IMG/VR virus record: IMGVR_UViG_3300028595_000004
Coordinates: 1 to 40,911 of that record
Direction: 5' to 3' (one strand)
DNA from: a virus
DNA length: 40,911 nucleotides
The notes under the pieces are model-generated. The model saw only the letters and a list, made by a program, of their open reading frames with translations. It was not told where the DNA came from and made no database searches. Position numbers and translations under genes: made by a program. How positions within the stretch are numbered: position 1 is the stretch's first letter; each line of letters starts with the position of its first letter. Of the stretch, positions 5,852-40,911 are shown piece by piece.

Positions 5852-6138
5852 CATTCCTCCTTGGCCTTTTCAGGCCGGTTAATCCGGTCGTTGGGTTGCC
5901 TCCAAATTTCAATTAATGCCTGAAGGTTTTCGTTCCGGTTGTAGACGAAATCTTTTTCAACCGTTCTCATCCCGCATTCGCACTCAATGAATTGAAATTC
6001 GTCAAAGCCCCAGTCCAAATCCTGCGATCTGGTTTTCATCTTTGGGATCAACCCACATTTACAGGGAGGCAACTCAACCAGTAAATGGAGCTTACGTGTT
6101 AAACGCTCGGTTTTGCTGTAATCAATCTGCTCGCTCAT
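5851..6138 (-). CDS. Lar-like zinc-ribbon protein (possible restriction alleviation)
   Basis: A 95-aa protein matching the plan of Lar-type (restriction alleviation) phage proteins: a first cysteine pair (PPCKCG, about residue 27), about 30 residues including aromatic strands, a second pair (ECECG), and a C-terminal ALIEIWRQ motif equivalent to the family's EEAIEAWN. The four cysteines probably bind one zinc. Lar of the Rac prophage modulates type I restriction; most phage relatives are untested. A GGAGAAG ribosome site precedes the ATG. The family match is by motif only. Confidence 0.6.
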   Translation of the reverse strand: MSEQIDYSKTERLTRKLHLLVELPPCKCGLIPKMKTRSQDLDWGFDEFQFIECECGMRTVEKDFVYNRNENLQALIEIWRQPNDRINRPEKAKEE

Positions 6139-6168
6139 GGCTTCTCCATTGCTTCACACGAAGCTCAT

Positions 6169-6399
6169 CTAGTCGTTGGATGTTTTAATCAGCCTTGCTT
6201 TTCTGAACGGGCATCTTGTGTCGCCAATCTTTCCTGCGAATGGAACGGGGTCTTTAACCCAATATCCTCTTTTTGACACCTCAACTATTGGCCCCCTTAT
6301 AGTTCTCCCGAATGCTTTAAACTCTATTGTATCGCCAACATCCAACAAGGTGCTGGACTCTATCGCGTTGGTCGGCTGTTCGTTCGCTTCAGTGTTCAT
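6169..6399 (-). CDS. Small beta-barrel-like protein, unknown
   Basis: A 76-aa protein with a disordered N-terminus and a short beta-rich core (GDTIEFKAFGRTIRGPIVEV, RGYWVKDPV) reminiscent of an SH3-like or YopX-like small barrel. It starts with a 4-bp ATGA overlap with the DUF551 gene. Function unknown. Confidence 0.6.
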   Translation of the reverse strand: MNTEANEQPTNAIESSTLLDVGDTIEFKAFGRTIRGPIVEVSKRGYWVKDPVPFAGKIGDTRCPFRKARLIKTSND

Positions 6400-8320: not shown

Positions 8321-10330
8321 TCAATAACACCCCCCGCCCCGGTTGCGCTGCGTCGCCTCCCGGTCGATGTAGCGGCAATTCTTCAGAAAAAACATCCGCA
8401 GGCAGTCAATAAAATCCTTGCAGGCCCCATGCTGACCGTCGCTGCCGGTATAAATACTCATCGCAAAAAGAAGGTTTTTGCAGTCCTTGGAAATCCGCAG
8501 CGTCGGACGGTTGAAGAAATCGACCGGCTTGTCCGGATCGTACTCCAGCGCGTCATTAATCATCTGCACACCGTCATCAATGCTATGTCGCGACCCACTC
8601 TCAGACTCATAGAACGTCAATCCGATCTCATCAAACTGATCAAACAAATTAATCTGCCCGCCCTCATTCACCCCCTTGGTATTCCCGAAACGGGCATCGA
8701 GCAGACGCATCTCAACCTTTTCCTTAGCCGGACCGTTTTCTTTCCAGGCTTTAATCTGCTCGTTGGTCGCTCGCGCCTCGTAGCATTCCCATCCCTCAAT
8801 CCGCGCAATCTCCTTCTTGTGACTGCACAGCCCCCAGCCAAAATTCTTCTGCGCGGGACCCTTCTTGCCGTCCAGTTTTTTCAGGTTGTCACTCGGCTCC
8901 GCCCACGGACCGACAAACCCCTGCCCCGGAATAGCCTCCACCTGGTTCGGCCACTCGCGGTACACATAAACCTCTTCCGGCGTACAGCGTACCCACAGCA
9001 TGGCCGTGTTGCGCTCCTTCGACGGGTCGGCAATCATATAGTTTGTTCCCTTCTCGGGAATCGCATCCGGCTCAATGCTGTGCACATCCTCATCGAACAA
9101 AGGAAATAGTCCGGCCTGCCGACGACGGGTAAATCCGTAGTAGCGCTCAAAAATCTTATCTTCGCTCAACCCCTCTACCTTGCGCCAGATCAGTTCGGGA
9201 TCGAGAAAGCGGTTGTCATCGCTGTAGAAACAAAGTGCCCCGTTGCGCGGATTCGCGCTCTGGATCACCCTTGGCGTCAGCGCAAACTCCCGTACCGCAG
9301 GCGTCCCGCCTGCCTCGCCAACAACATGCTCCACCGAAAGCCGCCGCGCATTCGCCGCCGTAGCAACCACACTCTTTACAGAGTCCACCTGCTGCCCGTC
9401 CCGGAACCACTCCAGACAATCCTCATGCTGAAACTGCAAATCTCTTGCCGGCGGCCGGTTATCGCGCGGAACAAGAAACGCCTTGCCATAGCGAAGCACC
9501 TTGCCGCCGTCCAGAAAGCGCGCGACCGTCGAAGTTGTTCCCTCAATCGGCGTAAACCCTAGCACCCCGACCGAATTAAAACGCGCCAAACGAAAGTCAA
9601 GCGTATCGATCAGCGAGCGCGGGGCCAGCTCGTCCGCACAGTACCCAACGCATCGGTTCAGCCCCTTGCGGTCGCCCGGCTCCGTACCCTCCGGCTTGGA
9701 ATCCTTCTGCTCGTAGTAGCGGAACAGGCACTCCGAGCGGTTCGGCAGAATAAAACTGTTGTCCGAAAAGCCTGTCTTCTGCTTCCAGGCAATGTAGGTG
9801 CTCTCCGTCCGCTGCGCAACGCGGTGCTCCGGCGGCAAAAACTCATACATACGCGCCTGGTGAACCTCGCGGCTCAGATCGCTGTCCGTGTGGTACATCT
9901 GAATCTTCACATCCGGGAACTGATACAAGCTTCGCATCGCCAGATAGCACTCCAAATGCGTCTTCGCCGACCCGTTGCCCCCCAGCACACAAACCACATC
10001 CCACGGCGCAGCCATCCCGAACGCCTTGCGCACCATCTCACCGAACGCCGCTCCGCCCTCGATCAGCTCCCCGTTTTCCTTCGGAAGCTGCGGAGGAATC
10101 ATCCAATCCAGACCCAGTACCGCCATACACACAAACCAAATACTCGGACGGTATCCATAGCGCAGCGGATCGGTCTGCTCGTTATAAATCTTCCGCTCCC
10201 GCGCCGTAAACAGCCAGTCGAACTTTTCGCGCAGCTGCTGCTCCGTCGGGCTTGCAATCCCGTCTGCAACGCACAGACGCCGCGCGTCATCAATCGTCAC
10301 CTCCGGCCAGATTGGATGTTTGGTTGCCAT
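8321..10330 (-). CDS. terL: Terminase large subunit
   Basis: The ATPase-nuclease motor that cuts and packages DNA, 669 aa. Walker A is GGNGSAKT (117-124) and Walker B CVGYCADE (227-234), with Glu234 as the likely catalytic base. The nuclease half starts at MIADPSKERNTAM with Asp435 as a probable metal ligand; DARFGN and the HSIDDG acidic segment follow. Residues 340-346 (AGGTPAV) are the exact translation of one palindromic host-style element (9293-9314), placed in a linker between ATPase and nuclease domains. The ATP motifs are intact, so the insertion looks tolerated. The gene is 3.2 kb from the scaffold gene in transcription order, with several accessory genes between. No adjacent small subunit is evident. 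Confidence 0.92.
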   Translation of the reverse strand: MATKHPIWPEVTIDDARRLCVADGIASPTEQQLREKFDWLFTARERKIYNEQTDPLRYGYRPSIWFVCMAVLGLDWMIPPQLPKENGELIEGGAAFGEMVRKAFGMAAPWDVVCVLGGNGSAKTHLECYLAMRSLYQFPDVKIQMYHTDSDLSREVHQARMYEFLPPEHRVAQRTESTYIAWKQKTGFSDNSFILPNRSECLFRYYEQKDSKPEGTEPGDRKGLNRCVGYCADELAPRSLIDTLDFRLARFNSVGVLGFTPIEGTTSTVARFLDGGKVLRYGKAFLVPRDNRPPARDLQFQHEDCLEWFRDGQQVDSVKSVVATAANARRLSVEHVVGEAGGTPAVREFALTPRVIQSANPRNGALCFYSDDNRFLDPELIWRKVEGLSEDKIFERYYGFTRRRQAGLFPLFDEDVHSIEPDAIPEKGTNYMIADPSKERNTAMLWVRCTPEEVYVYREWPNQVEAIPGQGFVGPWAEPSDNLKKLDGKKGPAQKNFGWGLCSHKKEIARIEGWECYEARATNEQIKAWKENGPAKEKVEMRLLDARFGNTKGVNEGGQINLFDQFDEIGLTFYESESGSRHSIDDGVQMINDALEYDPDKPVDFFNRPTLRISKDCKNLLFAMSIYTGSDGQHGACKDFIDCLRMFFLKNCRYIDREATQRNRGGGCY
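9293..9314. repeat. Single palindromic element inside terL
   Basis: The 22-bp core taccgcaggcgtcccgcctg(cc) is identical to the units of the tandem arrays at 2410 and 10459. It lies in frame in the terminase gene and encodes AGGTPAV. Confidence 0.95.
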
Positions 10331-10436: not shown

Positions 10437-11273
10437 TTAATCGTCCGCCGTATCTTCCTGTACCGCAGGCGTCCCGCCTGCCCCGGCTTCCTGTACCGCA
10501 GGCGTCCCGCCTGCCCCGGCTTCCTGTACCGCAGGCGTCCCGCCTGCCCCGGCTTCCTGTACCGCAGGCGTCCCGCCTGCCCCGGCTTCCTGTACCGCAG
10601 GCGTCCCGCCTGCCTCTCCATCAGAACCAGCACTCGTCCCTTCAGCACCGGCAGTCGCGCGTTCGTTCGTCCGCCCATGCAACGACGACAACGCATAATC
10701 AACACCCTCCAGCGCCTGTTCGTTTTCCAAACACACAAAGCCTCCGCTCTGGAAACCTTCCAGGCGGTCCTTCACGATTGCCAGCAGGCTTTCGCAACTG
10801 ATCCCGTTGAGCCCAGCTTCCAGCACCGGACCCTTCTGGAACTGAATTGCTACCGCCATCTTGCCGCCATCCGGCAGTTGAATCAGAATGGCATACTGAT
10901 GACACGCCCCGCCGGGGCCAGGCTCATCGCAGGCCAGCACTTCAATCTGCTCATCCATCCCCTCGCCGCAGCGGTGCGCCGTAATTTCGCGCGCGGTTTC
11001 CTCATCGACCACCAGCGACGGAATGTTTTTAAACCCAGGCGTTGGTTCATCGTCTTTCGGCTTCGGAGCGGACTTCTCCTTCAGCACTTTCTCAAACCCT
11101 TTGCCTTCATCGTCTTCATCACGGAACACAATACGCTCCGCCAGTGCGACCTCTTTGCTATGCCGAATCATATTCAGCTGAACATCCTCATTCGCCACAC
11201 CGGCCGCCGCCGACACCAGATCATCCCGCGTAACAACAACTGCCCCAACCTCATTCTTTACTTCTTCACTCAT
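10437..11273 (-). CDS. Protein with Acb2/Tad1-like hairpin domain and AGGTPAV repeats
   Basis: A 278-aa protein. Residues about 1-110 are charged and poorly conserved in appearance. Residues about 145-215 match a pattern I associate with the Acb2/Tad1 hairpin domain of phage proteins that sequester cyclic-nucleotide defence signals: VAIQFQKGPVLEAGLNGISC, LLAIVKDRLEGFQSGGF, CLENEQALEGVDYAL, HGRTNERATAGAEGT. The C-terminal 55 residues are five 11-residue repeats (QEAGAGGTPAV) made by the tandem palindromic array. AAGGAAG precedes the ATG. The domain call is from motif memory and needs a profile search. If right, the protein would counter CBASS or Thoeris; otherwise it is a conserved phage protein of unknown role. 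Confidence 0.6.
   Translation of the reverse strand: MSEEVKNEVGAVVVTRDDLVSAAAGVANEDVQLNMIRHSKEVALAERIVFRDEDDEGKGFEKVLKEKSAPKPKDDEPTPGFKNIPSLVVDEETAREITAHRCGEGMDEQIEVLACDEPGPGGACHQYAILIQLPDGGKMAVAIQFQKGPVLEAGLNGISCESLLAIVKDRLEGFQSGGFVCLENEQALEGVDYALSSLHGRTNERATAGAEGTSAGSDGEAGGTPAVQEAGAGGTPAVQEAGAGGTPAVQEAGAGGTPAVQEAGAGGTPAVQEDTADD
10459..10615. repeat. Five tandem 33-bp palindromic elements, coding
   Basis: The core taccgcaggcgtcccgcctg begins at 10461, 10494, 10527, 10560 and 10593, a period of exactly 33 bp (11 codons). It therefore encodes perfect protein repeats at the end of the sponge-like gene. Units are nearly identical, indicating recent expansion. Confidence 0.95.
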
Positions 11274-11427
11274 CGTCTTCCTTTCTATTTACGTACCGCA
11301 GGCGTCCCGCCTGCCCAGTTTTCCACCCATTGAAAATTAAAACCCGCACCCACCGCCACATCCCGACCAGCCAGCAAACCACCAGCGGAACAACCCAGCC
11401 CTCATTTCCACCGCACATCTGGCACAT
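11266..11427 (-). CDS. Small membrane protein with CxxC, partly encoded by palindromic element
   Basis: A 53-aa frame starting with the ATG that overlaps the stop of the ASCH-like gene (TGATG at 11427) and ending 8 bp inside the next gene. It begins MCQMCGGNEG, continues with a membrane helix (WVVPLVVCWLVGMWRW) and ends GQAGRLRYVNRKEDDE. GQAGRLRY is the translation of the palindromic element at 11294-11315. The translational coupling on both sides favours a real gene. Function unknown. Confidence 0.5.
   Translation of the reverse strand: MCQMCGGNEGWVVPLVVCWLVGMWRWVRVLIFNGWKTGQAGRLRYVNRKEDDE
11294..11315. repeat. Single palindromic element
   Basis: One taccgcaggcgtcccgcctg core lies 21 bp upstream of the sponge-like gene start, in frame in the small membrane protein gene. 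A degenerate TTCCA/TTGAA palindrome follows at about 11320-11337. Confidence 0.9.
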
Positions 11428-18790: not shown

Positions 18791-18816
18791 CGTAAAATCT
18801 CAAAAAAAACCGCGCG

Positions 18817-19065: not shown

Positions 19066-19093
19066 AAAAAACCTCAAAAAAAAAACGCGCGCG

Positions 19094-19327
19094 CTAATCC
19101 TGCCACCAGGCACCAGCCGGGACATGGCTCATCTGCTCACTCTGCCGCCAATCACGCCGCTCAACCGGCTTATGTTTGCGCCGCTTGGCGCCGCGCAACC
19201 CGGCGGACACATCCGCCGAACTGACTCCATAATCATCCGCCGCCGCGCGGATCGCTACGCCGTACGGCTTACCGGCCCGCACTAACTGCCGAGCCATCGC
19301 AACCGCTGATTGCAGATCACTGCTCAT
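19094..19327 (-). CDS. Small HTH-like protein
   Basis: A 77-aa protein, ATG at 19327 after GGAG. A helix-turn-helix-like stretch (KPYGVAIRAAADDYGVSSAD) is followed by a basic tail (GLRGAKRRKHKPVERRDW). It is the first protein gene after the tRNA and its terminator. Probably DNA-binding; otherwise unknown. Confidence 0.55.
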   Translation of the reverse strand: MSSDLQSAVAMARQLVRAGKPYGVAIRAAADDYGVSSADVSAGLRGAKRRKHKPVERRDWRQSEQMSHVPAGAWWQD

Positions 19328-19401
19328 CTCATCAACTCCAACGCCGCCAGGGCACCACATCCAACCCACAAAAAAGCCGCCGCCAAAAAAAGCAGCGACC
19401 G

Positions 19402-19452
19402 AAAAAAAATACGCCGCGCAAAAGTAACCCAATATTTATTATTTGCGCGGCG
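19402..19452 (-). terminator. Terminator after the tRNA gene
   Basis: On the minus strand CGCCGCGCAAA pairs perfectly with TTTGCGCGGCG (11 bp, 19-nt loop), followed by TA and eight T. It lies 26 bp after the tRNA CCA end and would release a short tRNA transcript. The large loop is AT-rich. A second GC hairpin (CCGCCGGC...GTCGGCGG, 19452-19472) lies between the two. Confidence 0.75.
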
Positions 19453-19478
19453 CCGCCGACACCGTGCCGGCGGAAAAT

Positions 19479-19553
19479 TGGTTGCGGGGGCCGGGCTCGA
19501 ACCGGCGACCTTGGGAGTATGAGACCCACGAGCTGCCACTGCTCCACCCCGCG
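19479..19553 (-). tRNA. tRNA-Met (CAT), initiator type, CCA encoded
   Basis: The gene is 75 nt and folds fully. Acceptor strands are CGCGGGG and CCCCGCA, so C1 and A72 are mismatched, the hallmark of bacterial initiator tRNA. D-arm is GAGC/GCTC. The anticodon loop is CTCATAC with CAT, the T-arm GCCGG-TTCGAGC-CCGGC, then A73 and an encoded CCA. The anticodon stem carries GGG/CCC but shifted by one pair (TGGGT/TCCCA, closing T-T mismatch), unlike the usual three G-C pairs next to the loop. It is transcribed leftward with its own terminator. It may supplement host fMet-tRNA in late translation. Confidence 0.9.
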
Positions 19554-19616
19554 ACTTAGCAAAATCAGACTCCGGCAGCGGCCGGATAAACAAACGCTGT
19601 ACATCAATCGGCTGCA

Positions 19617-19793
19617 TCATAACGTGCCTCCAGGTGCCGAGCACCCAGGCGCCGGGACAGCCGGCCGCTCAACGGTCGGGATATAATCAGAGATAGCAGC
19701 CTCAGTCACAAATTTGATCTTAAGACCATTATTATTGCAGTACTGCTTAAGCCGCTGGTGCACATCATTATCAATCAATATTGCTTTGCTCAT
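19617..19793 (-). CDS. Ribbon-helix-helix regulator (58 aa)
   Basis: A 58-aa frame beginning MSKAILIDNDVHQRLKQYC, then NNNGLKIKFVTEAAISDYI. This is the beta-strand, helix, turn, helix plan of Arc/CopG-type DNA-binding dimers, with a short Pro-rich tail. No clear ribosome site precedes the ATG, so it may be leaderless or weakly translated. It faces the second such gene (19890) across a 96-bp region with two palindromes. This arrangement suggests a genetic switch or autoregulated repressor. Confidence 0.65.
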   Translation of the reverse strand: MSKAILIDNDVHQRLKQYCNNNGLKIKFVTEAAISDYIPTVERPAVPAPGCSAPGGTL

Positions 19794-19889: not shown

Positions 19890-20189
19890 ATGACAAATCG
19901 CCAAAAAAACAAATCAGTTCGCTTAAGCGATGACGCTTACGCGCGCGCCGCAAAACTTGCGGCCGAAATGCGCCCAAAATCAACCCTACAGTACGTCATA
20001 GAAGATGCTATACAGCAGTACCTAGACCGCGCGGAAAGCGCCGAAAAACAGCGAGTGCCACCAGCCGGCCAATACCAATACAAATCAATGATTGACGCTG
20101 CCGCCGAACGCGGCGCAGAACAACCCGCCGAAAAAAAAACTAAAAAAGAGAGGAATAAAACCGATCCACCGCCGACACGTACGGCATGA
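19890..20189 (+). CDS. Ribbon-helix-helix DNA-binding protein
   Basis: A 99-aa protein. Residues 8-46 (KSVRLSDDAYARAAKLAAEM, STLQYVIEDAIQQYL) fit the RHH fold: a strand, then two helices. Residues 50-99 are a basic, proline-ended tail. It is the first gene of the rightward operon and lies opposite the 58-aa RHH gene. Its dimer probably binds one of the palindromes in 19802-19841. Which of the two acts as repressor of lysis or lysogeny cannot be told from sequence. Confidence 0.7.
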   Translation: MTNRQKNKSVRLSDDAYARAAKLAAEMRPKSTLQYVIEDAIQQYLDRAESAEKQRVPPAGQYQYKSMIDAAAERGAEQPAEKKTKKERNKTDPPPTRTA

Positions 20190-22328: not shown

Positions 22329-22430
22329 TTCAACCAGTAGACCCCTGCAAACATTGGCTAAAGTGCATACCAACCAATTAAAACAAGGGCATGACCACAG
22401 ACAAAACTCTACCGCTCCAACTTCTGCACA

Positions 22431-22450
22431 CCGACACAGACCGACACAGA
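22431..22450 (+). repeat. Direct repeat CCGACACAGA x2 upstream of int
   Basis: Two adjacent copies of ccgacacaga, plus a partial third (ccgacc), lie between attP and the int promoter. They are candidates for integrase arm-type or excisionase binding sites. Confidence 0.5.
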
Positions 22451-22456
22451 CCGACC

Positions 22457-22485
22457 TTGACACGCTCCCAAAGTGTGCATAATGT
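22457..22485 (+). promoter_or_regulatory. Integrase promoter
   Basis: TTGACA (22457-22462), 17-bp spacer, TAATGT (22480-22485). This is close to the sigma70 consensus. AGGAG (22498-22502) precedes the ATG at 22508 by 5 nt, giving a very short leader. Confidence 0.75.
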
Positions 22486-22507
22486 GTGCAGTCAAACAGG
22501 AGAGTCT

Positions 22508-23629
22508 ATGAAAAACGTTGAGGGCCATCGTAATTTAAAGGTGCGCGAGGGAAAATATTACTGGCGGGAAACGATTAAAGGCCGGAAATATTTTGAGTCG
22601 CTGCATGTGCCATATACCGGCCGGAAGGCCGAGGAAAAGGAAGCTGTTGCCCGGATGCAGGAAAAGCAGAAGCTGGCCCGGACAGAGCAGTTTGACCGCC
22701 TGGACGATACCCGCGTGAAGGTGGGTTATGCCACGATCGGAGCAATCATCAAACAGTACGAAGCAGCCGCTGCCGCCTACGGTCTGGCTGACAGTTCCCG
22801 CAAGAAGGCTGTGAACTCTCTTAAATTCATCATCACCACCGCAACCGGCCACTATTCCGATGATCTATCATCGACTGTTCTGACCGGCAAACTGGTACGG
22901 GACTACCGCGACGCCGTGCTGGCCGGAAGGACGGATCTTGATACAGCCAGGCGCACGATCGCATCTACGCTCCGCAACGCCCGCGCAGTGTTTGCCGGGT
23001 GGACGCATGACGAATATCGGAAATTGAAACTACCGGACCTGACCGACTTTAAAAAGGGAGCAGCCAACCGAACGCATATCAAGCAGTACGTGCTGCCGCC
23101 ACAGGATCTAATCGACCGCACCATTAAAGCGGGCCGCCAGCTCCTGCAGGACGGCAAGACCGGCCTTGCCGCCATGTTCCTGCTGACATACGACTGCGCA
23201 CTTCGCAGCACAGAGGCACAACTGGCCACGCGCGACTGGATCGGCGACGGCTGGATCGAAGTACGCGCCGGCAAGACATGGAACGCGCGACGCGTCGGAC
23301 GGAAAATCCCGCTGAATAAAGAGACGCAGGCGGAACTCGAAAGCCTGCTGCGCCAGAACGAGGAATACATTCTGCCCGGCAAACACATGACGGAACGGAA
23401 AACGCTGGCAGAGCGTGAATTCAGCGAATGGATGCGCGGGCTAGGCTGGACCCGCGAACAGTACCCCAAAACGGCGCATGAATTGCGGAAGCTCAAAGGC
23501 AGCAGATGGTACACCGACCAAGGCCCGCACATCGCGCAGACGCTTCTCGGGCACGTCTCGGTAGCCACAACCTGCAAACTGTACGCAACGCTGGATAAAC
23601 TTCCCGAGGCGCTGCCGCGGGAAAGCTAA
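22508..23629 (+). CDS. int: Tyrosine-type site-specific integrase
   Basis: A 373-aa recombinase for integration and excision. The start is the ATG at 22508 with AGGAG; an in-frame ATG at 22391 would cover the promoter. The N-terminal part is basic (RNLKVREGKYYWRETIKGRK). Catalytic residues are R233 (CALRSTEAQLA), a Lys in the RAGKTWNARR hairpin, H324-x-x-R327 (HELRK), H349 (LLGHVS) and Y359 (KLYATL). All are intact. It stops tail to tail with the giant late gene, the two stop codons overlapping. The neighbouring tRNA fragment is its probable attachment site. Confidence 0.93.
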   Translation: MKNVEGHRNLKVREGKYYWRETIKGRKYFESLHVPYTGRKAEEKEAVARMQEKQKLARTEQFDRLDDTRVKVGYATIGAIIKQYEAAAAAYGLADSSRKKAVNSLKFIITTATGHYSDDLSSTVLTGKLVRDYRDAVLAGRTDLDTARRTIASTLRNARAVFAGWTHDEYRKLKLPDLTDFKKGAANRTHIKQYVLPPQDLIDRTIKAGRQLLQDGKTGLAAMFLLTYDCALRSTEAQLATRDWIGDGWIEVRAGKTWNARRVGRKIPLNKETQAELESLLRQNEEYILPGKHMTERKTLAEREFSEWMRGLGWTREQYPKTAHELRKLKGSRWYTDQGPHIAQTLLGHVSVATTCKLYATLDKLPEALPRES

Positions 23630-26600
23630 CGCCTAAACGATGCGTCTATGTATTGCATCAGGGCTTCGCGCTCCTCCTTGGATCGGGCGGAGTCAATGAG
23701 CTGATCTTCCGGCCGCATGAATTTACGGGCGGCGCGGGCGTCAAAGTTTCTTTCCACATAGCCTTGCGCTCGCGGATCCTGCTCGATGGCCCGCAGCAGC
23801 TCCGAATCCACACTGCCGCGCTCCACCTGCTGATTGATTGCGGTCCGGGCATTCAAGCGGCTTCTGGACTGCTCACGCCGCAGCGGCTCAACCACCTTTT
23901 GGCGCAGGAAATCGGCACGTCCGCGATTGGATACTTTCACCCACCGACCTAACGCATTACTGATCACTGGCAGCTGAAGGAACTTCTCCATACGTGTTTT
24001 CTGCGGATCATCACCGTAGTCATTCACATCGAAGCGGTGGACAATAGACCCACCGAATGCATTCCAGGTATATTTACCCATGGCGACCACGCTGCGGCCG
24101 TCTTGCGCCTGCATCAGATCATCATTCAGTAGCGGCCGACCACGGAACCAGTCATAGGGATTATTCCCGGAAAGATACTGACCCCACGCCAGCGGAACTT
24201 CCCAGACCGGGTTTCCGGATGGCAGCTGCCCGCCGGCATACGCCATAATCTGCCCGGGATTACCGGACTTATTCATAATTTTCCACGCAATCGCGCCCGG
24301 CATACGGAACTCTTCAGCCAGCGGCAGGCGGATATACATAACCTTTCCTTGCGCGCGGTCTTCCCATCCCAGCGGAATAATCGTGTAATTGGCTTTATCA
24401 TACTCCGGAATGTATGAATACATGGCTTCAAGGTCTTTCCCCCACTCTTCGCCATCGTCACCAAAACCGGCCTTCAGCGCCATAGTTAGCGCACCGGACG
24501 CGGCGGCCCACATCGCCACCTTTGGAGCAATGGAAAACTTAGCCGTATTCCAAGCCATAGCTGCCGGCGACTCCTTCGTGCGGTTAAATGTCGAACGAAC
24601 CGATTCCTTCCACGGGTTGTAGAACAGCGCCACAAAATCAACAAACGGATTAGCGGCCCCTTTCTGCAGGAAATTCGGAGATCCTGAATAATTGTGGATA
24701 ATGTACTGTTTCCGCCACTCCGGCATATCCTGAAAGTTCTTGTCCAGGTAGAGACGACCCGCACGTTTCACCGTGCGCTCAAACACCTGTCCCAACTCCA
24801 TCCACTTACTGGCGGCGCCTACCACCAGGCGGATCGCCCGCTGGTCCGCCCGCAGATTTTCCGGATTCTGCCAGTAGCGCCGCATCAGCCGGTCAATAGC
24901 CGTCCCGTCATCTTTGTGAGCCAGCGGATTCGCAACCGTAATCCAATCCTGTTTGCTCAGGCTTTCCAGCGCGCCGACATTCGGCTTTCCGAACACAGAC
25001 GACGCGGAATCCGCAAACGCCCGCCCGAAATTACGCCAGAACTGCGGACCGCCAAACGGCAGCCGCGAAGTGCGCGGCATCTTCCCCTGGAACGCCATCA
25101 CATCGCGCACAAAAGCCACCGGCCAGAAACCGTAGTTCAACTGGGTGAACAGATTCTTCACGCCCCGGCTCGGTGCGGACAGCATCTTAATCAGCATTGT
25201 GTTTTCCACGCTGTTTCCGCGGTCGAACGCCTCGGCAAACACCTTCGGCACATACCATCCCTCAGACTTGCCGTCGCGCATCACAACAATGGTTCCGACT
25301 CGGTCGCCTTCCTTCACCACCACTTCACGGAAGCGGCCGTTCCAGCGCATATCAGCCTGTTTAATCTCATTCGGGAAATGCTGGCGCATCATATCCACCA
25401 TTTCCGTCTTAGCCACATTGCGCCGCGCGGCATCCATTAAAGAAATATCCTTCATTACCGTCGCCGCTGCCGGATCCTGAATCCGGTTGAGTGTACCGAT
25501 CTGCCGGTAAATCTTTGCGCCCACATTCGAGCCATAGGTGCGCGCCAGCATCTCATCAATCGAGCCCTCCGCGCCGGCGGACTGATCCTTTGCCACCGCA
25601 AACGTCGCGTAATACAGATTATCCTCCATCTTCTGCAAAAGCTCCGGCGTCACCAGGCCGGACTGTTTCACCATCTCCAGCACCGTATCGGTGCGGATCT
25701 GCCAAAGCTGTTCATGTGCCGCCTGCAAAGCAGACCAGCGCTGCGGTCCCAGCTCGGCGGACAGCTCATCCATGCGCTGCTTCGAACTCTTTGGCGTGAA
25801 CCCCAACGGGTTGGCCATATCAAAACGCTCATTCATCACGCGCTGGTGGAACATATATTCTGACAGATTCTCCCACGTCAGATCATTGGAATGCAGAGCC
25901 TTCATCACCTGCTGCGAAACGCGGCCCATGTAATACTCATGGCCGGTCGCACGGTAGAGATAGTTTTCAATCGCGCCCTCCACGCGCCCGCGCTCATCCC
26001 CTTTGAGCTTCGCCTGATTCATCCGGGCAAACACCGGACCAAACACCCGATCGAACGAAAAGCGAACCGAATCCGCCCGCTCGCGGCCCGTCGTCTTTCC
26101 TCCGGCCTCATACAAACCAAACGCCTTCTGGTCGGAATCCTGAAACGCCCTATGCAGCCGCCTCACGCGCTCCTTATGAATCTGCCCGCTGCGGATGTCC
26201 TCCTGAATCTGATTATAAATCTTCAGGGCGGCCGGACGTGCTTCAAGCCCCTCATGCAGCATCTGGAAAAACTTAGGAGCCCGCTTCGCCAGCGCCTGCG
26301 GATTATTCATAAACACAGAAAACGAATCGGCATACATCTCTGCCGGCTTCTTGTAATAATCCGGCATCGTTTCCGACCCGTTCCACCAGGCAATCAACGG
26401 CTCCAGCTCGGCAACAATCTGCGCCTTCGTAACCAGACCGCGCGCCGCGGCCTCCTTCGAAACCATGCTCTGATACCCATTAGACACCCGCTTGTTCCAT
26501 GCCTTCAGCTCCGCCGGACGCTTCTTGCTCGGACGCGGACCGGCGGCAAACTGCGCCTCCTTGCGCAGTCGCTTGCGGTCGTTATCGTCCAGCAGCGGCT

Positions 26601-29600
26601 CATCCGTCGTCAACCGCTCCGAAATCATCGACTTTGTGTACTTATTCAGCGCCGCGATATGCCCCAGAATATTCCCGCGCGAAAAGGTGTAATCCGGCAG
26701 GAAATCAATCCAGTGGCCGATCTCATGGGCCAGCGTCTTGCGCGCCCAGACCGGATCCTCCTGCTTGCGCTTCTCAAACTCCTGCTCATAAAGAAACTGA
26801 TACCGCTCATCAGCCACCTTGGCCGTATCCGCATCGTCAAGATTTTCCTGCTGCTGAACCGTCTTGGCATACTCGTTGGCCTGCTCGCGCAGCGCGCGGC
26901 GCACATCGCGGGGAACCAGCTCAAACGTCTCCGCCTTCAGCTCAATGCGCGGATCGAGCGGATCGCCGTAAAACGCGCCGGCGGCACGGCCTTTCAGCAG
27001 ACGCAACTGCTCCTTCACGCGCGGCAACTTCCCGCCTCCCAGCAGCTCCGCCACATGTACCAGCTCCGGCATTTCAAACGGAAGAGACGAATGCAACGGA
27101 TCATCCGCAGGCACCCCGGCAGCACCCAGCCCGCCTTCACCCTTCCCGCCGCCATCAGCCATCGCCTCCGCCGCTGCGTTTCCAGACATTGGAACGGATT
27201 GTTCCGAACCTTGGAAATCCTGCGCGACGGGCGGCTCATCAAAAATAGACGGCGGAACCTCCTGCTGTGCTTCGGCCATCTTTTCCTCCGGTGCGGGCGG
27301 GACTGACTGCTTTTCCATAAAAGAAAGCGGATCAACCTCCTCAACAGCAACGGTCAAATCCGGCTCAAAATAAATTTTTACTTTATGTTTTTCTGTACCG
27401 GTTATCTGACCTCCGGAGTGCATCATTCCATCATATCCAGCAGAAGCCATTGCATCGAGCAATTCGTCAAAAGTTTCCTGTACCTCATATGTGCTAATCA
27501 TTTGGGAAACCGACTCATCTCGAATCGCATCGTAAAGATCTGCTACGGTTTCGATGATATTACCGTACAAGTTTTGCTCTCCAAATTTTGGAAAGTTATC
27601 CGGGATTCTTTGATTCATGGTTTTGGCCAACTGAGGATCAACGGCCGCATTCATGTCCAAAATATTAAGGTTTTCCTTTTCCGTAACCTTATAGATTACG
27701 GGGGTTCCTCCTCGTCCTTTCTTTGAATAGCCAACTGAAACATCGGCAGCATCTGTTGTATAGAATCCGCCGCCGTAAATATTTTGTTCCGATCCGTACC
27801 GACCAATCAGGCCGGTTAATTTGGAAGATGTTCCATGATATTGTACTCCTTCTCCGCGCGTGTTACGAATCGGAATCCGGCCAGCTAAAACATCCCGCCG
27901 GTTCGCATCGCTGAAATCTGGAACATTTTCTTTCAACCCTCGGAAATCCTGCGCGACGGGCGGCTCATCAAAAATAGACGGCGGAACATTCTGCTGTGCT
28001 TCGGCCTGTTCGTCGAGACTCTGCAAATAATACACATCATCCACATCGGCGGCGTCCGGTTCGGCCTGCAAATCGGCTTCCGTAATTCCGCGCGCATCGA
28101 GCACCTGTTTCCAAACCTCGGAAAACTCTGTGCGCAGATTGGCGGGCGGCAGGATGCCGTCGGTCACATACTCGTTAAAACCCTCCCAGGTCAACCGCTC
28201 ATCCTCGGCGGCTTCCCGGTCGGCTTCGGTCTGGCCGGACTGCTGACGCTCCTCCAGCTGCATTTCAACGCGCTCCAGGTGCGCGCGCAGATCGTCGGTC
28301 GTCATGTTGAACCGGTCGGCCCACTCATCCAGGCTCTGCGCCGCTGCATCATCCGCTTTCGCCCAGTAGCGGCGCGGAATAATCCCCCACTCCTCAGAAT
28401 GGCTCTGGAAGGCTCCGCCTGTTTTCTCGCGCCGGATCCCGCGCGCCAGAATTTCGGCGGCAATCTCATCACCGGAAAGCACCTCATCGGCAATCTGCTG
28501 CTGCTTCGCCTTAAACTCCTTCAGCTCGGCGGACTGCCGCTTCTCTTCGGCGGTCATCGCTTTTCGGGGCGTTGGCTTCTTCACCTTACGGCCCTTGGTG
28601 ATAATTTGCTCAATCAACTTTGTTCGCGTAACGGGCTGGTCCGATCCCTTCTCAAAGAACTGACCGTTGCGCAGCACATAGCGCTGCTTCTGAAACGTTA
28701 CTTCCCGGCCTTCTTCGTAGCGTCCGGCTGGCGGCGCATCTTCAATCGGGCCGCGCGGTCCAGCATCATTCCCAGCTCCGGGTTCCTGCGCCCCGTCTTC
28801 ACGGCCTGCTGGCGGCTCAAGGTTGCTTTGTTCATTGGGTTTCTCCTGATTATTAATTTCAAACGTCGGCAGATTCTGCGGTGTCGGGTCAACCGGATTG
28901 CCAAAGGCGTCAACCGCCGCCGGTGCGTCTGACCCCTGACCTCCGACCCCTGACCCCTGACCTCCGGCTTCCGGCGAAAGCACCTCGGAACGGAACGCCC
29001 GCCGCGCCACCCCTGCCGCGCCGCCGCCGGCAAGCGTAATCACACCCACCGCCGGAATTGACTGCACACCACTCTCAATAAAAGCAGTTTTCAGCTTTTC
29101 AGGATCAAGGCTTTTCACCAGATCAAGAATCGACTGCGTATCACCCTTCGATGCCGCATCAAGCATCTCCCCGGTACCTTCTTCAACTGCGCCCTGTGCG
29201 CCCTCTTCAACCAGAGACTCCAACGCCCAGCGGATTGCAAACGCCGTCCCGCTGCGCCCGATCCGCTGCAGTATTGTCGGATTGGCCGCCACCTTACGGA
29301 AAAGAAAGTTTGCCACCTGCTGATCCACCCCGGAACCCAGCGACTTCATGCCCGGAATTGCGCTTACCGCAAACTCAATCGCCGCATACGGTGCAGCCAT
29401 CGCCTGAGATATTTTGTTATATTCCGAAAGCTGCTCCGGTGTCAGCGCATCCAGATCCTTATCGCGAAGAAACGACCGCAAAAACTGACCAGCCCCCTGC
29501 TGCTGCCAGTACGTGCCGACCGCAGCCTTGCCGGTAAACCCGCCAACAAAAGGAATTGAAGAGCCCGCCGCACCAACCAACGCGCTTTCCACCATCGGCA

Positions 29601-30279
29601 CGCCGCTGGCTGCCGCACCCTTCACACCTTTTTCCAGCAGATTGGCGTCATCCAGGCTCAACCGGTCGCCAACTTTACCGAGAACGCTACGGTCTTCCTG
29701 AACAGCCGAGCGTAGCTTCTCCATATCCCCGCCGATGGCCGCAGCCGAAACCCGGTTATTCAGCGAAGCCGACCAGCCGCCCATCTTCCAGTGGTCATCA
29801 ATCGACCCGTCAATCTTTCCCTCTTCAACCGCCTTACGGAACGGCTCAGCCCGCATGTAATCCGCACCGACCTCCGTGCTATCCGTCAAACCATCCCACC
29901 AGCGACCAAGATTAAACTGCGCCCGGTCAATAAACTTCTGCACCGCATTCCGGTCGTCCGCCCTCCAGACTCCGAACCGGTCTTCATCCACTGCAACAGG
30001 CTCTGCACTTCCACCCAAAGGAAACTCCAGCAGGGACGGGCCGCGCTCCTGCCCCTCAAAGCTTCTCGGAATGCCAAGCGAATCATTGCCGTATGCTGGC
30101 GGAATGCCAAGGTCCTGCGAACCCTGCTGCGGCGCAGCTTCCGGGGCGGGGAGCATACTCCAAGAATCCTCCTGCTCCAATGCGGCGAATGGATCCATCC
30201 CGCCCGGGGCATCCATCACAGCGGCTTCAGTTCCATCCCCCCAGGGAGTTTCTATTTTAAGTGCTTCAAACGGATCCAT
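23626..30279 (-). CDS. Giant polyvalent virion protein with ART-like and metallopeptidase domains
   Basis: A 2217-aa protein, typical in size and place of internal proteins ejected into the host with the DNA. GAGGTCAGC precedes the ATG. Residues about 805-990 look like an ADP-ribosyltransferase: YHGTSSK with H815, then GGGFYTTDAADVSVGYS. This part is bounded by duplicated VPPSIFDEPPVAQDF segments and is AT-richer than the rest. Residues about 1180-1320 form a zinc peptidase: LAHEIGHWIDF (H1185-E-x-x-H1189) and a later AEMYADSFS Glu. Residues about 1600-2110 match large polyvalent protein (LPD38-like) sequence: NLFTQLNYGFWPVAFVRDVM, PLAEEFRMPGAIAW. No lytic enzyme or polymerase motif was seen. 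Substrates unknown; the enzyme calls are by motif. Confidence 0.82.
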   Translation of the reverse strand: MDPFEALKIETPWGDGTEAAVMDAPGGMDPFAALEQEDSWSMLPAPEAAPQQGSQDLGIPPAYGNDSLGIPRSFEGQERGPSLLEFPLGGSAEPVAVDEDRFGVWRADDRNAVQKFIDRAQFNLGRWWDGLTDSTEVGADYMRAEPFRKAVEEGKIDGSIDDHWKMGGWSASLNNRVSAAAIGGDMEKLRSAVQEDRSVLGKVGDRLSLDDANLLEKGVKGAAASGVPMVESALVGAAGSSIPFVGGFTGKAAVGTYWQQQGAGQFLRSFLRDKDLDALTPEQLSEYNKISQAMAAPYAAIEFAVSAIPGMKSLGSGVDQQVANFLFRKVAANPTILQRIGRSGTAFAIRWALESLVEEGAQGAVEEGTGEMLDAASKGDTQSILDLVKSLDPEKLKTAFIESGVQSIPAVGVITLAGGGAAGVARRAFRSEVLSPEAGGQGSGVGGQGSDAPAAVDAFGNPVDPTPQNLPTFEINNQEKPNEQSNLEPPAGREDGAQEPGAGNDAGPRGPIEDAPPAGRYEEGREVTFQKQRYVLRNGQFFEKGSDQPVTRTKLIEQIITKGRKVKKPTPRKAMTAEEKRQSAELKEFKAKQQQIADEVLSGDEIAAEILARGIRREKTGGAFQSHSEEWGIIPRRYWAKADDAAAQSLDEWADRFNMTTDDLRAHLERVEMQLEERQQSGQTEADREAAEDERLTWEGFNEYVTDGILPPANLRTEFSEVWKQVLDARGITEADLQAEPDAADVDDVYYLQSLDEQAEAQQNVPPSIFDEPPVAQDFRGLKENVPDFSDANRRDVLAGRIPIRNTRGEGVQYHGTSSKLTGLIGRYGSEQNIYGGGFYTTDAADVSVGYSKKGRGGTPVIYKVTEKENLNILDMNAAVDPQLAKTMNQRIPDNFPKFGEQNLYGNIIETVADLYDAIRDESVSQMISTYEVQETFDELLDAMASAGYDGMMHSGGQITGTEKHKVKIYFEPDLTVAVEEVDPLSFMEKQSVPPAPEEKMAEAQQEVPPSIFDEPPVAQDFQGSEQSVPMSGNAAAEAMADGGGKGEGGLGAAGVPADDPLHSSLPFEMPELVHVAELLGGGKLPRVKEQLRLLKGRAAGAFYGDPLDPRIELKAETFELVPRDVRRALREQANEYAKTVQQQENLDDADTAKVADERYQFLYEQEFEKRKQEDPVWARKTLAHEIGHWIDFLPDYTFSRGNILGHIAALNKYTKSMISERLTTDEPLLDDNDRKRLRKEAQFAAGPRPSKKRPAELKAWNKRVSNGYQSMVSKEAAARGLVTKAQIVAELEPLIAWWNGSETMPDYYKKPAEMYADSFSVFMNNPQALAKRAPKFFQMLHEGLEARPAALKIYNQIQEDIRSGQIHKERVRRLHRAFQDSDQKAFGLYEAGGKTTGRERADSVRFSFDRVFGPVFARMNQAKLKGDERGRVEGAIENYLYRATGHEYYMGRVSQQVMKALHSNDLTWENLSEYMFHQRVMNERFDMANPLGFTPKSSKQRMDELSAELGPQRWSALQAAHEQLWQIRTDTVLEMVKQSGLVTPELLQKMEDNLYYATFAVAKDQSAGAEGSIDEMLARTYGSNVGAKIYRQIGTLNRIQDPAAATVMKDISLMDAARRNVAKTEMVDMMRQHFPNEIKQADMRWNGRFREVVVKEGDRVGTIVVMRDGKSEGWYVPKVFAEAFDRGNSVENTMLIKMLSAPSRGVKNLFTQLNYGFWPVAFVRDVMAFQGKMPRTSRLPFGGPQFWRNFGRAFADSASSVFGKPNVGALESLSKQDWITVANPLAHKDDGTAIDRLMRRYWQNPENLRADQRAIRLVVGAASKWMELGQVFERTVKRAGRLYLDKNFQDMPEWRKQYIIHNYSGSPNFLQKGAANPFVDFVALFYNPWKESVRSTFNRTKESPAAMAWNTAKFSIAPKVAMWAAASGALTMALKAGFGDDGEEWGKDLEAMYSYIPEYDKANYTIIPLGWEDRAQGKVMYIRLPLAEEFRMPGAIAWKIMNKSGNPGQIMAYAGGQLPSGNPVWEVPLAWGQYLSGNNPYDWFRGRPLLNDDLMQAQDGRSVVAMGKYTWNAFGGSIVHRFDVNDYGDDPQKTRMEKFLQLPVISNALGRWVKVSNRGRADFLRQKVVEPLRREQSRSRLNARTAINQQVERGSVDSELLRAIEQDPRAQGYVERNFDARAARKFMRPEDQLIDSARSKEEREALMQYIDASFRR
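27213..27277. repeat. 65-bp direct repeat, copy 1 (C-terminal side of ART cassette)
   Basis: Identical in 63 of 65 positions to 27942-28006 and exactly 729 bp (243 codons) away. It encodes a segment reading AEAQQEVPPSIFDEPPVAQD followed by FQG. The pair brackets the ART-like segment, so the cassette keeps the reading frame. Confidence 0.95.
27942..28006. repeat. 65-bp direct repeat, copy 2 (N-terminal side of ART cassette)
   Basis: Second copy of the repeat, encoding AEAQQNVPPSIFDEPPVAQD then FRG. Recombination between the two would remove the whole 243-codon ART-like segment cleanly. Confidence 0.95.
28929..28967. repeat. GACCCCTGACCTCC spacer tract inside giant gene
   Basis: Tandem related words (ctgacccctgacctcc) encode a Gly/Gln/Ser-rich linker (GGQGSGVGGQGSD). 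They resemble the tract at 14428-14461 and host-style intergenic text-like repeats. Confidence 0.65.
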
Positions 30280-37500: not shown

Positions 37501-39201
37501 CTAATTGCTATGCCTCACAGACTCGATGGAATACAGCCCTGAAATCTCGGCGGAAGATAGCTCCCCATTGATTATAAACACATCGTCCAATTTTGATTTG
37601 CAGGTCTTCACACTGCCATCTTCCGAGCATCCAACATAGAGATCGAATTCTGTCGAGTACTGAACAGTCGGAGCGGCGGTCATAGATCCGTTTTTGACGT
37701 TGACTCCGTTTAGGTACGCACTGTAAGTGCCAGCATCAAAGCGGAGCACAACCGCTAGATGAGTCCAAACATTAGTTGCCTCGGTCCATCCGGTCACGGT
37801 CTGGTTTGCCATGATATTATTTTGAGCACCAGCCTGCCAACTTAGCATAGTTAGCTTGTAGTCGCCTGTTCCTGGACCATAGTACATTTTCCACGATCCA
37901 TTATCTGTGCCATATTCTCCGTATGTCAGTATTGGATTGTACACTCCGGTCGCAGACGGTGCGGTTGGGCTGATCCAAAAACCAATGGTAAACGTTCCGT
38001 TGGTTGGTGTTGACAATGTTGCATCATTGTAAATAACTTTTTTGCCGGTATTATTCTCCGACGGATACTCCAAATGTGCCCCCGTCTGCCACAGCCTATT
38101 GTATTTAACGTGCTGTACGTCCGAGGATTTAAAAAGCAGAGATTTTGGGGATTTATCCAGTAAGTAGTCGTTGTCAAACGTAGCCCAAAACAAGGCGTTT
38201 GTCCATTGCGGTAACTGCCGATAGGTCTCAATGGAATCAACCGGATCGGTTCTGTTTTGCAGATCTCCTCGCGGTGAGATTCCCAACTCCCGCTTGGCCT
38301 TTTCAACAAGCCCATAACTGCTGTAGTGGATATTGTCCGAGTTGATGTCCAAATCATCACAGTCAATCAACCTGATATTTGGCAAGGTTTCCGCCACCTG
38401 ATACGTTTGTTGCTGGACAGAGTAGCCTGCAATCGTCCCATTGTTGCGTACAAGCGGAATTGTAAACTTAACGGTTGGTTCACCCAGATCAGATCGCATC
38501 GACTGAATCATGTTCGTCATGTTTTCGTAAAACGCGTTGTCCTCCCACCCGATGGTATTAAATTTGTCTCTTTCGCCGCCCGTGAATACGATCTCGGTCA
38601 ATTTTGTGTTGTAACCAAGAGCTTCCAGATCGGCTACCATGTTTGTGTATTGGCTGATTACTCCGTCGTATCCAACGGTATTTGTTGCGCCGGGCGCCCA
38701 AAAGTCATAGACCCCTTTTGCTCCCCACATATATTTGCATATTGCCGCCTTTGGATATATCGCATCCATTACAGGCCCGACAATCATCTCGGTTCCCCAA
38801 TAGTTAGTCGATGCCTGCTGTAAAGTTGTTAACGCGCCGCTGGATATTTCCCGACTGGAAAATAAAATATTCGTGTTCGTTAGCGGTATCCCAAAATCAA
38901 GCAAAGCCTGCGATGACTGAGGGGACCCATCGTTGCTTTGACCAAACTGCAAGCGAATGTAGCAGGTTTTACCCTGATAGCGGATATCAGCTGCGCCCTG
39001 CGTGATTCCGTTCGTTGGGTTAAACCAGGCGTCGATTTGCCCCTGCAAGTCAACCCCCTCCACTTGATACCGGTTCACAAACCGCAGCGCATCCCCCGCA
39101 GTAACCGGACCCCTTACAGAGATCCATTTGCTGCCAAACGGCAGTGCCCATGCAGACACCGCCAACCAATAAAACAAAACAAAACAAAACAGCTTTTTCA
39201 T
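37501..39201 (-). CDS. Secreted SASA-type carbohydrate esterase with LamG-like domain
   Basis: A 566-aa protein with a signal peptide (residues 1-19, MKKLFCFVLFYWLAVSAWA). Residues about 78-310 have the SGNH/SASA (sialate O-acetylesterase) plan: FGQSN with nucleophile Ser89, FTGGERD in place of the GESD block, and SDNIH with Asp289 and His292. Residues about 335-560 are a ConA/LamG jelly-roll (FTIGFWISPTAP, WTHLAVVLRFDAGTYSAYLN, KLDDVFIINGELSSAEISGL). It would remove acetyl groups from polysaccharides. ATGA overlap ties it to the late operon. The signal peptide is odd for a tail enzyme; it may be exported, or acquired from the host. Start codon well supported. Confidence 0.75.
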   Translation of the reverse strand: MKKLFCFVLFYWLAVSAWALPFGSKWISVRGPVTAGDALRFVNRYQVEGVDLQGQIDAWFNPTNGITQGAADIRYQGKTCYIRLQFGQSNDGSPQSSQALLDFGIPLTNTNILFSSREISSGALTTLQQASTNYWGTEMIVGPVMDAIYPKAAICKYMWGAKGVYDFWAPGATNTVGYDGVISQYTNMVADLEALGYNTKLTEIVFTGGERDKFNTIGWEDNAFYENMTNMIQSMRSDLGEPTVKFTIPLVRNNGTIAGYSVQQQTYQVAETLPNIRLIDCDDLDINSDNIHYSSYGLVEKAKRELGISPRGDLQNRTDPVDSIETYRQLPQWTNALFWATFDNDYLLDKSPKSLLFKSSDVQHVKYNRLWQTGAHLEYPSENNTGKKVIYNDATLSTPTNGTFTIGFWISPTAPSATGVYNPILTYGEYGTDNGSWKMYYGPGTGDYKLTMLSWQAGAQNNIMANQTVTGWTEATNVWTHLAVVLRFDAGTYSAYLNGVNVKNGSMTAAPTVQYSTEFDLYVGCSEDGSVKTCKSKLDDVFIINGELSSAEISGLYSIESVRHSN

Positions 39202-40563: not shown

Positions 40564-40911
40564 TGAGCAGCCTCCTGACGTACGGGCTGCCCTTGTGGCT
40601 GCCCAATCGCCATCAAATCCGTCTCCGTAAATCCAAGCCGACCAGTCTGCGCGTTTTCACGCTGCTGAGTTTGGAACCCGAGATATTCCAACTGCTCCTG
40701 AATAATCGCCGCCGCAGCCGGACTGATTTCCGGAAACGCACCGGGATTAGCCTGCCGCAGCTGCAGCTCCTGCTGGAGCACCTGCAAACGGATTGGAAAG
40801 TTCTGCGCCCGGTTATCATCCGGCCGATTTGGGCGGATTCCCTGCATCATCAGCGCAAGGTTTTTCTTTTCATCCGACGCCTCGGCCGCATCCGCTGTTT
40901 CACGGCTGCGC
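40560..40911 (-). CDS. Portal protein, C-terminal part (continued from position 1)
   Basis: The last 75 codons of the portal gene (40784-40560) plus the 127-bp repeat that duplicates its codons 624-666. The tail is Gln-rich (LQVLQQELQLRQANPGAFPE) and ends QPQGQPVRQEAAQ. In the circular molecule it joins directly to base 1 without frame change. The stop overlaps the tail adaptor start. Confidence 0.88.
   Translation of the reverse strand, partial: RSRETADAAEASDEKKNLALMMQGIRPNRPDDNRAQNFPIRLQVLQQELQLRQANPGAFPEISPAAAAIIQEQLEYLGFQTQQRENAQTGRLGFTETDLMAIGQPQGQPVRQEAAQ
40785..40911. repeat. Right copy of 127-bp terminal direct repeat
   Basis: Identical to 1-127. See the left copy. Circularising by removing one copy restores an unbroken 740-codon portal gene. 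Confidence 0.95.

Follow-up and report, generated by a model that had tools for sequence, protein, structure and literature searches.

The 40,911-nt stretch of phage DNA analyzed here (hereafter, the window) encodes a single tRNA of the initiator type, which, judging from its sequence, is very probably a working initiator tRNA. In the reading we prefer, to which we give about even chances, this functional phage-borne initiator would allow initiation to continue while the host is cleaving or modifying its own initiator, and an unusual U31-U39 mismatch and C38 in the anticodon stem-loop could hinder a nuclease. The strengths that we attach to function, to counter-defence and to selection at positions 38 and 39 are judgements, not computed values.

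Identity and setting of the tRNA gene

The tRNA gene and the features around it are as follows:

19479-19553, minus strand: initiator-type tRNA gene (CAT), 75 nt, detected by ARAGORN and Rfam RF00005, with CCA encoded at 19481-19479
19512-19528, minus strand: anticodon stem-loop, Sprinzl positions 27-43 (UGGGUCUCAUACUCCCA), with U31-U39 at 19524/19516, C38 at 19517 and the anticodon CAU at 19521-19519
19402-19473, minus strand: predicted intrinsic terminator, two hairpins (19473-19453; 19452-19412) and a U8 run (19409-19402)
19617-19793, minus strand: Arc/omega-like ribbon-helix-helix repressor gene, 58 aa (PF07764, E 6e-4, below the curated cut-off; phrog_3180, Arc-like repressor, E 1.4e-4)
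19890-20189, plus strand: divergent Arc-like gene (weak match to phrog_6506, E 0.0097)
19324-19620, minus strand: 98-codon ORF through the tRNA and terminator, with an ATGA overlap with the genes on each side
19094-19327, minus strand: small gene, 77 aa, next downstream of the tRNA; kept at about 80% identity in the relative L002, there too directly behind a tRNA

ARAGORN calls a tRNA-Met(cat) at exactly 19479-19553, and RF00005 matches it end to end with 55.5 bits (cut-off 29, E 2e-9), in agreement with the preliminary description, which had left the minus strand unstated. The RNA reads, 5' to 3', CGCGGGGUGGAGCAGUGGCAGCUCGUGGGUCUCAUACUCCCAAGGUCGCCGGUUCGAGCCCGGCCCCCGCAACCA. No second tRNA gene is present in the genome. 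The initiator assignment and the encoded CCA of that description were both confirmed: C1 (19553) and A72 (19483) are unpaired, the anticodon CAU lies in a full cloverleaf according to both ARAGORN and Rfam, and the D stem (GAGC/GCUC) contains A11-U24, with a purine at position 11. Of the three consecutive G-C pairs expected of an initiator (29-41, 30-40 and 31-39), the first two are kept, while 31-39 is U-U. Positions 1 and 72 are paired in elongator methionine tRNA and in the isoleucine tRNA with a CAU anticodon; an isoleucine tRNA (CAU with lysidine) and an elongator methionine tRNA were thus ruled out by C1-A72 together with A11-U24.

The overall match to bacterial fMet tRNA also holds, at about 84% identity over the gene to the Escherichia coli metZ/metY type, with which the phage tRNA shares CAU, the unpaired C1-A72, an identical acceptor stem, A11-U24, G29-C41, G30-C40 and CCA. 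It differs from the E. coli tRNA in having U31-U39 for G31-C39, C38 for A38, a G28-C42 pair and a D-loop that is two bases shorter.

The stop codon of the repressor gene lies 63 nt upstream of the tRNA, and a palindrome, CCGTGG-CACA-CCACGG, separates this gene from the divergent Arc-like gene. Because the two Arc-like genes diverge and the tRNA follows the leftward one, the tRNA is probably part of the first leftward transcript; a search of the minus strand for a sigma-70 consensus promoter found none. Downstream, a 9-bp hairpin is followed by a GC-rich hairpin of 11 bp with a 19-nt loop and then by the U8 run. The folding energy of this region (z = -4.3, with zero shuffles equally stable) supports, as a prediction, the terminator that had been assigned to the tRNA. 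At other junctions of the leftward block, alternating GCGCG leads into a T8-T10 run immediately ahead of the following ribosome site (19076-19085 and 18802-18809, minus strand); this is seen in L002 too (509 and 180), and these junctions may be terminator-like or a U-rich leader.

The 98-codon ORF has no match in Pfam or PHROG and its frame is closed in L002, so that a protein function for it is unsupported; it is probably a chance ORF or a short 5' gene fragment. A comparable layout is found in Mesorhizobium phage vB_MseS-P1 (PP232116.1; our locus L245), which resembles the window in being 40.8 kb long, in having its integrase far off and in carrying a lone CAU tRNA (6210-6284) behind a repressor protein C gene, within an ATGA-coupled ORF. 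This tRNA is missing from the deposited annotation, in which a CDS labelled transcriptional repressor spans it. In both phages, an ORF (19324-19620, minus strand, in the window; 5861-6361 in PP232116.1) has an ATGA overlap with the repressor stop codon and is open through the CAU tRNA, in the same frame. However, the vB_MseS-P1 genome is unrelated, and its tRNA has A1-A72, a different D arm and the canonical A38; the layout shared by these two unrelated integrase phages of about 41 kb may be chance.

The phage genome and its relatives

1-127, no strand: terminal direct repeat, left copy (right copy, 40785-40911)
22391-23629, plus strand: tyrosine integrase (PF00589, E 4e-10; phrog_216), 2.8 kb from the tRNA

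The window is a complete phage genome, closed by an exact 127-bp direct repeat at both ends, with a unique length of 40,784 bp. Besides the integrase, it encodes a DnaB-like helicase, a DNA methyltransferase, a major capsid protein of the SU10 type and a 669-aa protein that is probably the large terminase; the latter has no family match yet aligns with the protein in the same place in L002. The end repeat, capsid protein, DnaB and integrase place the tRNA in a phage-gene setting. Megablast of 24 kb of the window against phages gave no match and a search for relatives of the integrase found none; among genome contigs, a scan based on the terminase alignment did not confirm any relative and the tRNA pattern had no match. 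Tandem repeats of about 32-33 bp with the core CAGGCGTCCCGCCTGCC occur at 2402-2533, 10453-10614, 9289-9315 and 11291-11315, partly within reading frames. Such repeats are frequent in genomes of Kiritimatiellota, Lentisphaerota and Verrucomicrobiota, and they provide a lead to the phage host. A 566-aa protein (37501-39201, minus strand) combines sialic-acid esterase-like and laminin-G-like domains and may bind host-surface sugars, and a 2217-aa protein (23626-30279, minus strand) has a weak DUF3990 match.

The nearest relative is L002 (DnaB 82% identical), a 14-kb contig that begins inside the T-arm of a tRNA (1-28, GCGGGTTCGAGTCCCGCCCCCGCTACCA) and continues with a gene of the same 77-aa family. 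Over the 3' 28 nt to which the comparison is confined, 24 are equal to those of the window. The four differences comprise two that convert pair 51-63 from C-G to G-C, one loop base, and base 72, which is U instead of A. Because U72 is frequent in phage initiators (1-72 is U-U in 18 and C-U in 14 of 164 listed), the L002 tRNA, as far as these 28 nt reveal it, could be an initiator as well. The compensatory change at 51-63 suggests that the tRNA has been kept by selection, with the caveat that separate acquisition from two hosts could produce the same difference. A contig break at this point is expected if assembly breaks at tRNA sequence shared with another genome. In the 35 terminase relatives (L002-L036), no tRNA exceeded the family cut-off; those nearest after L002 (L003-L006) show none of the tRNA-adjacent genes and are therefore uninformative as to tRNA conservation.

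The anticodon stem-loop among phage and bacterial initiators

In the preliminary description, the three G-C pairs of the anticodon stem were shifted by one position and closed by a T-T pair. The closing mismatch, U31-U39, is correct, but a shift describes the stem loosely: 29-41 and 30-40 are canonical, 31-39 has been lost and the G-C pair at 28-42 is incidental. Folded by itself, the stem-loop has a 4-bp stem and a 9-nt loop (-3.4 kcal/mol), as compared with 5 bp and -6.6 kcal/mol for a version with G31-C39 and A38. Since the A-minor contacts of 16S G1338 and A1339 are made with pairs 29-41 and 30-40 (PMC11497404), both of which are kept, P-site entry would be expected to survive. For bacteria, we relied on published figures (PMC13092985): a 4-bp anticodon stem occurs in 82 of 50,849 tRNA-fMet genes, with 46 of the 82 affected at the opposite end of the stem, and at most 36 have U-U at 31-39. 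As initiators with a 4-bp stem are thus nearly absent from bacteria, the phage copy may initiate poorly.

To place the tRNA among other phages, IMG/VR was scanned with two initiator-type tRNA patterns; pattern 1 fixed positions 29-30 and 40-41, pattern 2 left them free, and both fixed pair 27-43. At least 119 and at least 120 stretches matched, respectively, and the complete isolates CcrColossus, phiM12, RcXuper and Wakanda also carry initiator-type tRNAs, so the earlier statement that initiators are rare among phage tRNAs does not stand. Like the tRNA of the window, these initiators have CAU, often stand alone and have a weak or absent 1-72 pair (unpaired in most listed sequences); CCA is encoded in 80 of 164. 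No other tRNA lies within 3 kb at 132 of 198 listed loci, some of which are short. Across the IMG/VR loci L038-L235, lone initiator-type tRNAs are frequent on contigs of many sizes. Genes beside 60 internal lone copies belong to terminase, portal, head protease and capsid families, with one integrase match among the families listed; given such neighbors, the lone copies belong, as a class, to the phages themselves and for the most part are not attachment sites, though those near contig ends may be host flanks. Our literature search found no paper treating lone phage initiator tRNAs as a class.

Among the 171 distinct IMG/VR sequences listed, pair 30-40 is constant and pairs 29-41 and 31-39 vary. 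Pair 30-40 is G-C in 171 of 171 and pair 29-41 is G-C in 102, A-U in 44, U-A in 24 and C-G in 1, the G-C share at both being raised by the positions fixed in pattern 1. Pair 31-39 is G-C in 143, C-G in 13, A-U in 5, U-G in 5, G-U in 2, U-A in 1 and U-U in 2; position 38 is A in 158, U in 9 and C in 4. The two U31-U39 sequences are those of the window and of locus L076, which has A38, so that, among the sequences listed, the combination of U31-U39 with C38 is seen in the window alone. The rarity lies in the 31-39 mismatch; the kind of phage tRNA that carries it is known and common. An excess of U31-U39 in phages (2 of 171 versus at most 36 of 50,849, p 0.007; 1 of 170, p 0.12, without the window) is not claimed, because the window itself had been chosen for U31-U39. 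A natural variant of this kind is informative as to which of the three conserved G-C pairs are actually required by the ribosome.

Possible roles and alternative readings

It has long been asked why phages carry tRNAs. In the case of an initiator, a shortage of tRNAs for rare internal codons cannot be the explanation, and lone initiator tRNAs therefore point either to initiation capacity or to protection from an attack on the host's initiator. Toxins are known to act on initiator tRNA: it is cleaved by enteric and leptospiral VapC, in the enteric case between A38 and C39 of tRNA-fMet (PMC4105405), and AtaT is described as acetylating it (cited in PMC6293099). For this reason, we consider defence the likeliest ground for a phage to carry an initiator, but that counter-defence is its main benefit is a tentative proposal, to which we give somewhat less than even chances.

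Both bases flanking the enteric VapC cut are changed in the window (C38/U39 versus A38/C39 in the host tRNA), which makes escape from an initiator-tRNA nuclease plausible. The preliminary description had raised such escape, along with altered initiation behavior, as a possibility. The window is similar in this respect to the phage tRNAs with anticodon-loop changes near known nuclease cut sites for which escape has been proposed (PMC10264068). The Shigella phages of that study generally avoid encoding tRNA-fMet, the target of VapC-LT2, whereas the window carries one with both cut-site bases changed. However, most listed phage initiators keep A38 (158 of 171) and G31-C39 (143 of 171), so avoidance of VapC-type cutting is no property of the class in general. 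Accepting these limits, we find it rather doubtful that selection for nuclease escape produced the changes at 38 and 39 themselves. A broader proposal seems to us unlikely, and slightly more so: that lone phage initiators form a widespread counter-defence class replacing host tRNA-fMet hit by toxins (VapC, AtaT-like), with U31-U39/C38 selected against cleavage while the pairs read by the ribosome are kept.

The observations underlying the functional reading are the intact cloverleaf, the initiator marks, the CCA, the leftward block, the terminator-like hairpin and the tRNA in the same place in L002. In this scheme, the tRNA would be made as part of the leftward transcript, excised by host RNases, charged with methionine, formylated by way of C1-A72, on which formylation depends (PMC11497404), and accepted by the P site through the retained 30-40 and 29-41 pairs. 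It could then sustain initiation while the host initiator is being cleaved or modified by the host; U31-U39 and C38 might hinder recognition by the nuclease, at the cost of a weaker anticodon stem.

The foremost alternative, which we regard as possible although distinctly less probable than this functional reading, is that the initiator is carried for initiation capacity, or for a host with few initiator genes, and that the stem changes are tolerated drift with no defence role. Lone initiators are common across many kinds of phages, and most have canonical 38/39 bases, which means that the class could be accounted for by supply alone; the invariant G30-C40 is likewise in keeping with it. However, the near absence of U-U at 31-39 from bacterial initiators indicates that the change is not freely tolerated in cells, although constraint on a phage copy could be weaker.

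Improbable, in our view, is a decaying, now non-functional tRNA derived from the host or from an old attachment site (an attP lying within a gene for an initiator tRNA), which the preliminary description had named among its refuting cases. A tyrosine integrase is present, tRNA genes often serve as sites of attachment, decay could account for the U-U pair, and the L002 contig breaks in the tRNA as it would at host-shared sequence. In opposition to this, the gene is full-length, single-copy and 2.8 kb from the integrase gene, beside which no partial tRNA copy lies; the mismatch is limited to one base pair, with every other stem intact; and the T-arms of the two related phages differ with pairing preserved.

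Finally, it is very improbable that the opened 31-39 pair serves to allow near-cognate starts (AUA or others), thereby changing the set of phage or host genes that is translated: tRNA-fMet with a 4-bp stem has been predicted to initiate at AUA and to be removed by selection in bacteria, but that prediction is hypothetical for fMet and the experiments reported alongside it deal with the opposite end of the stem (PMC13092985).
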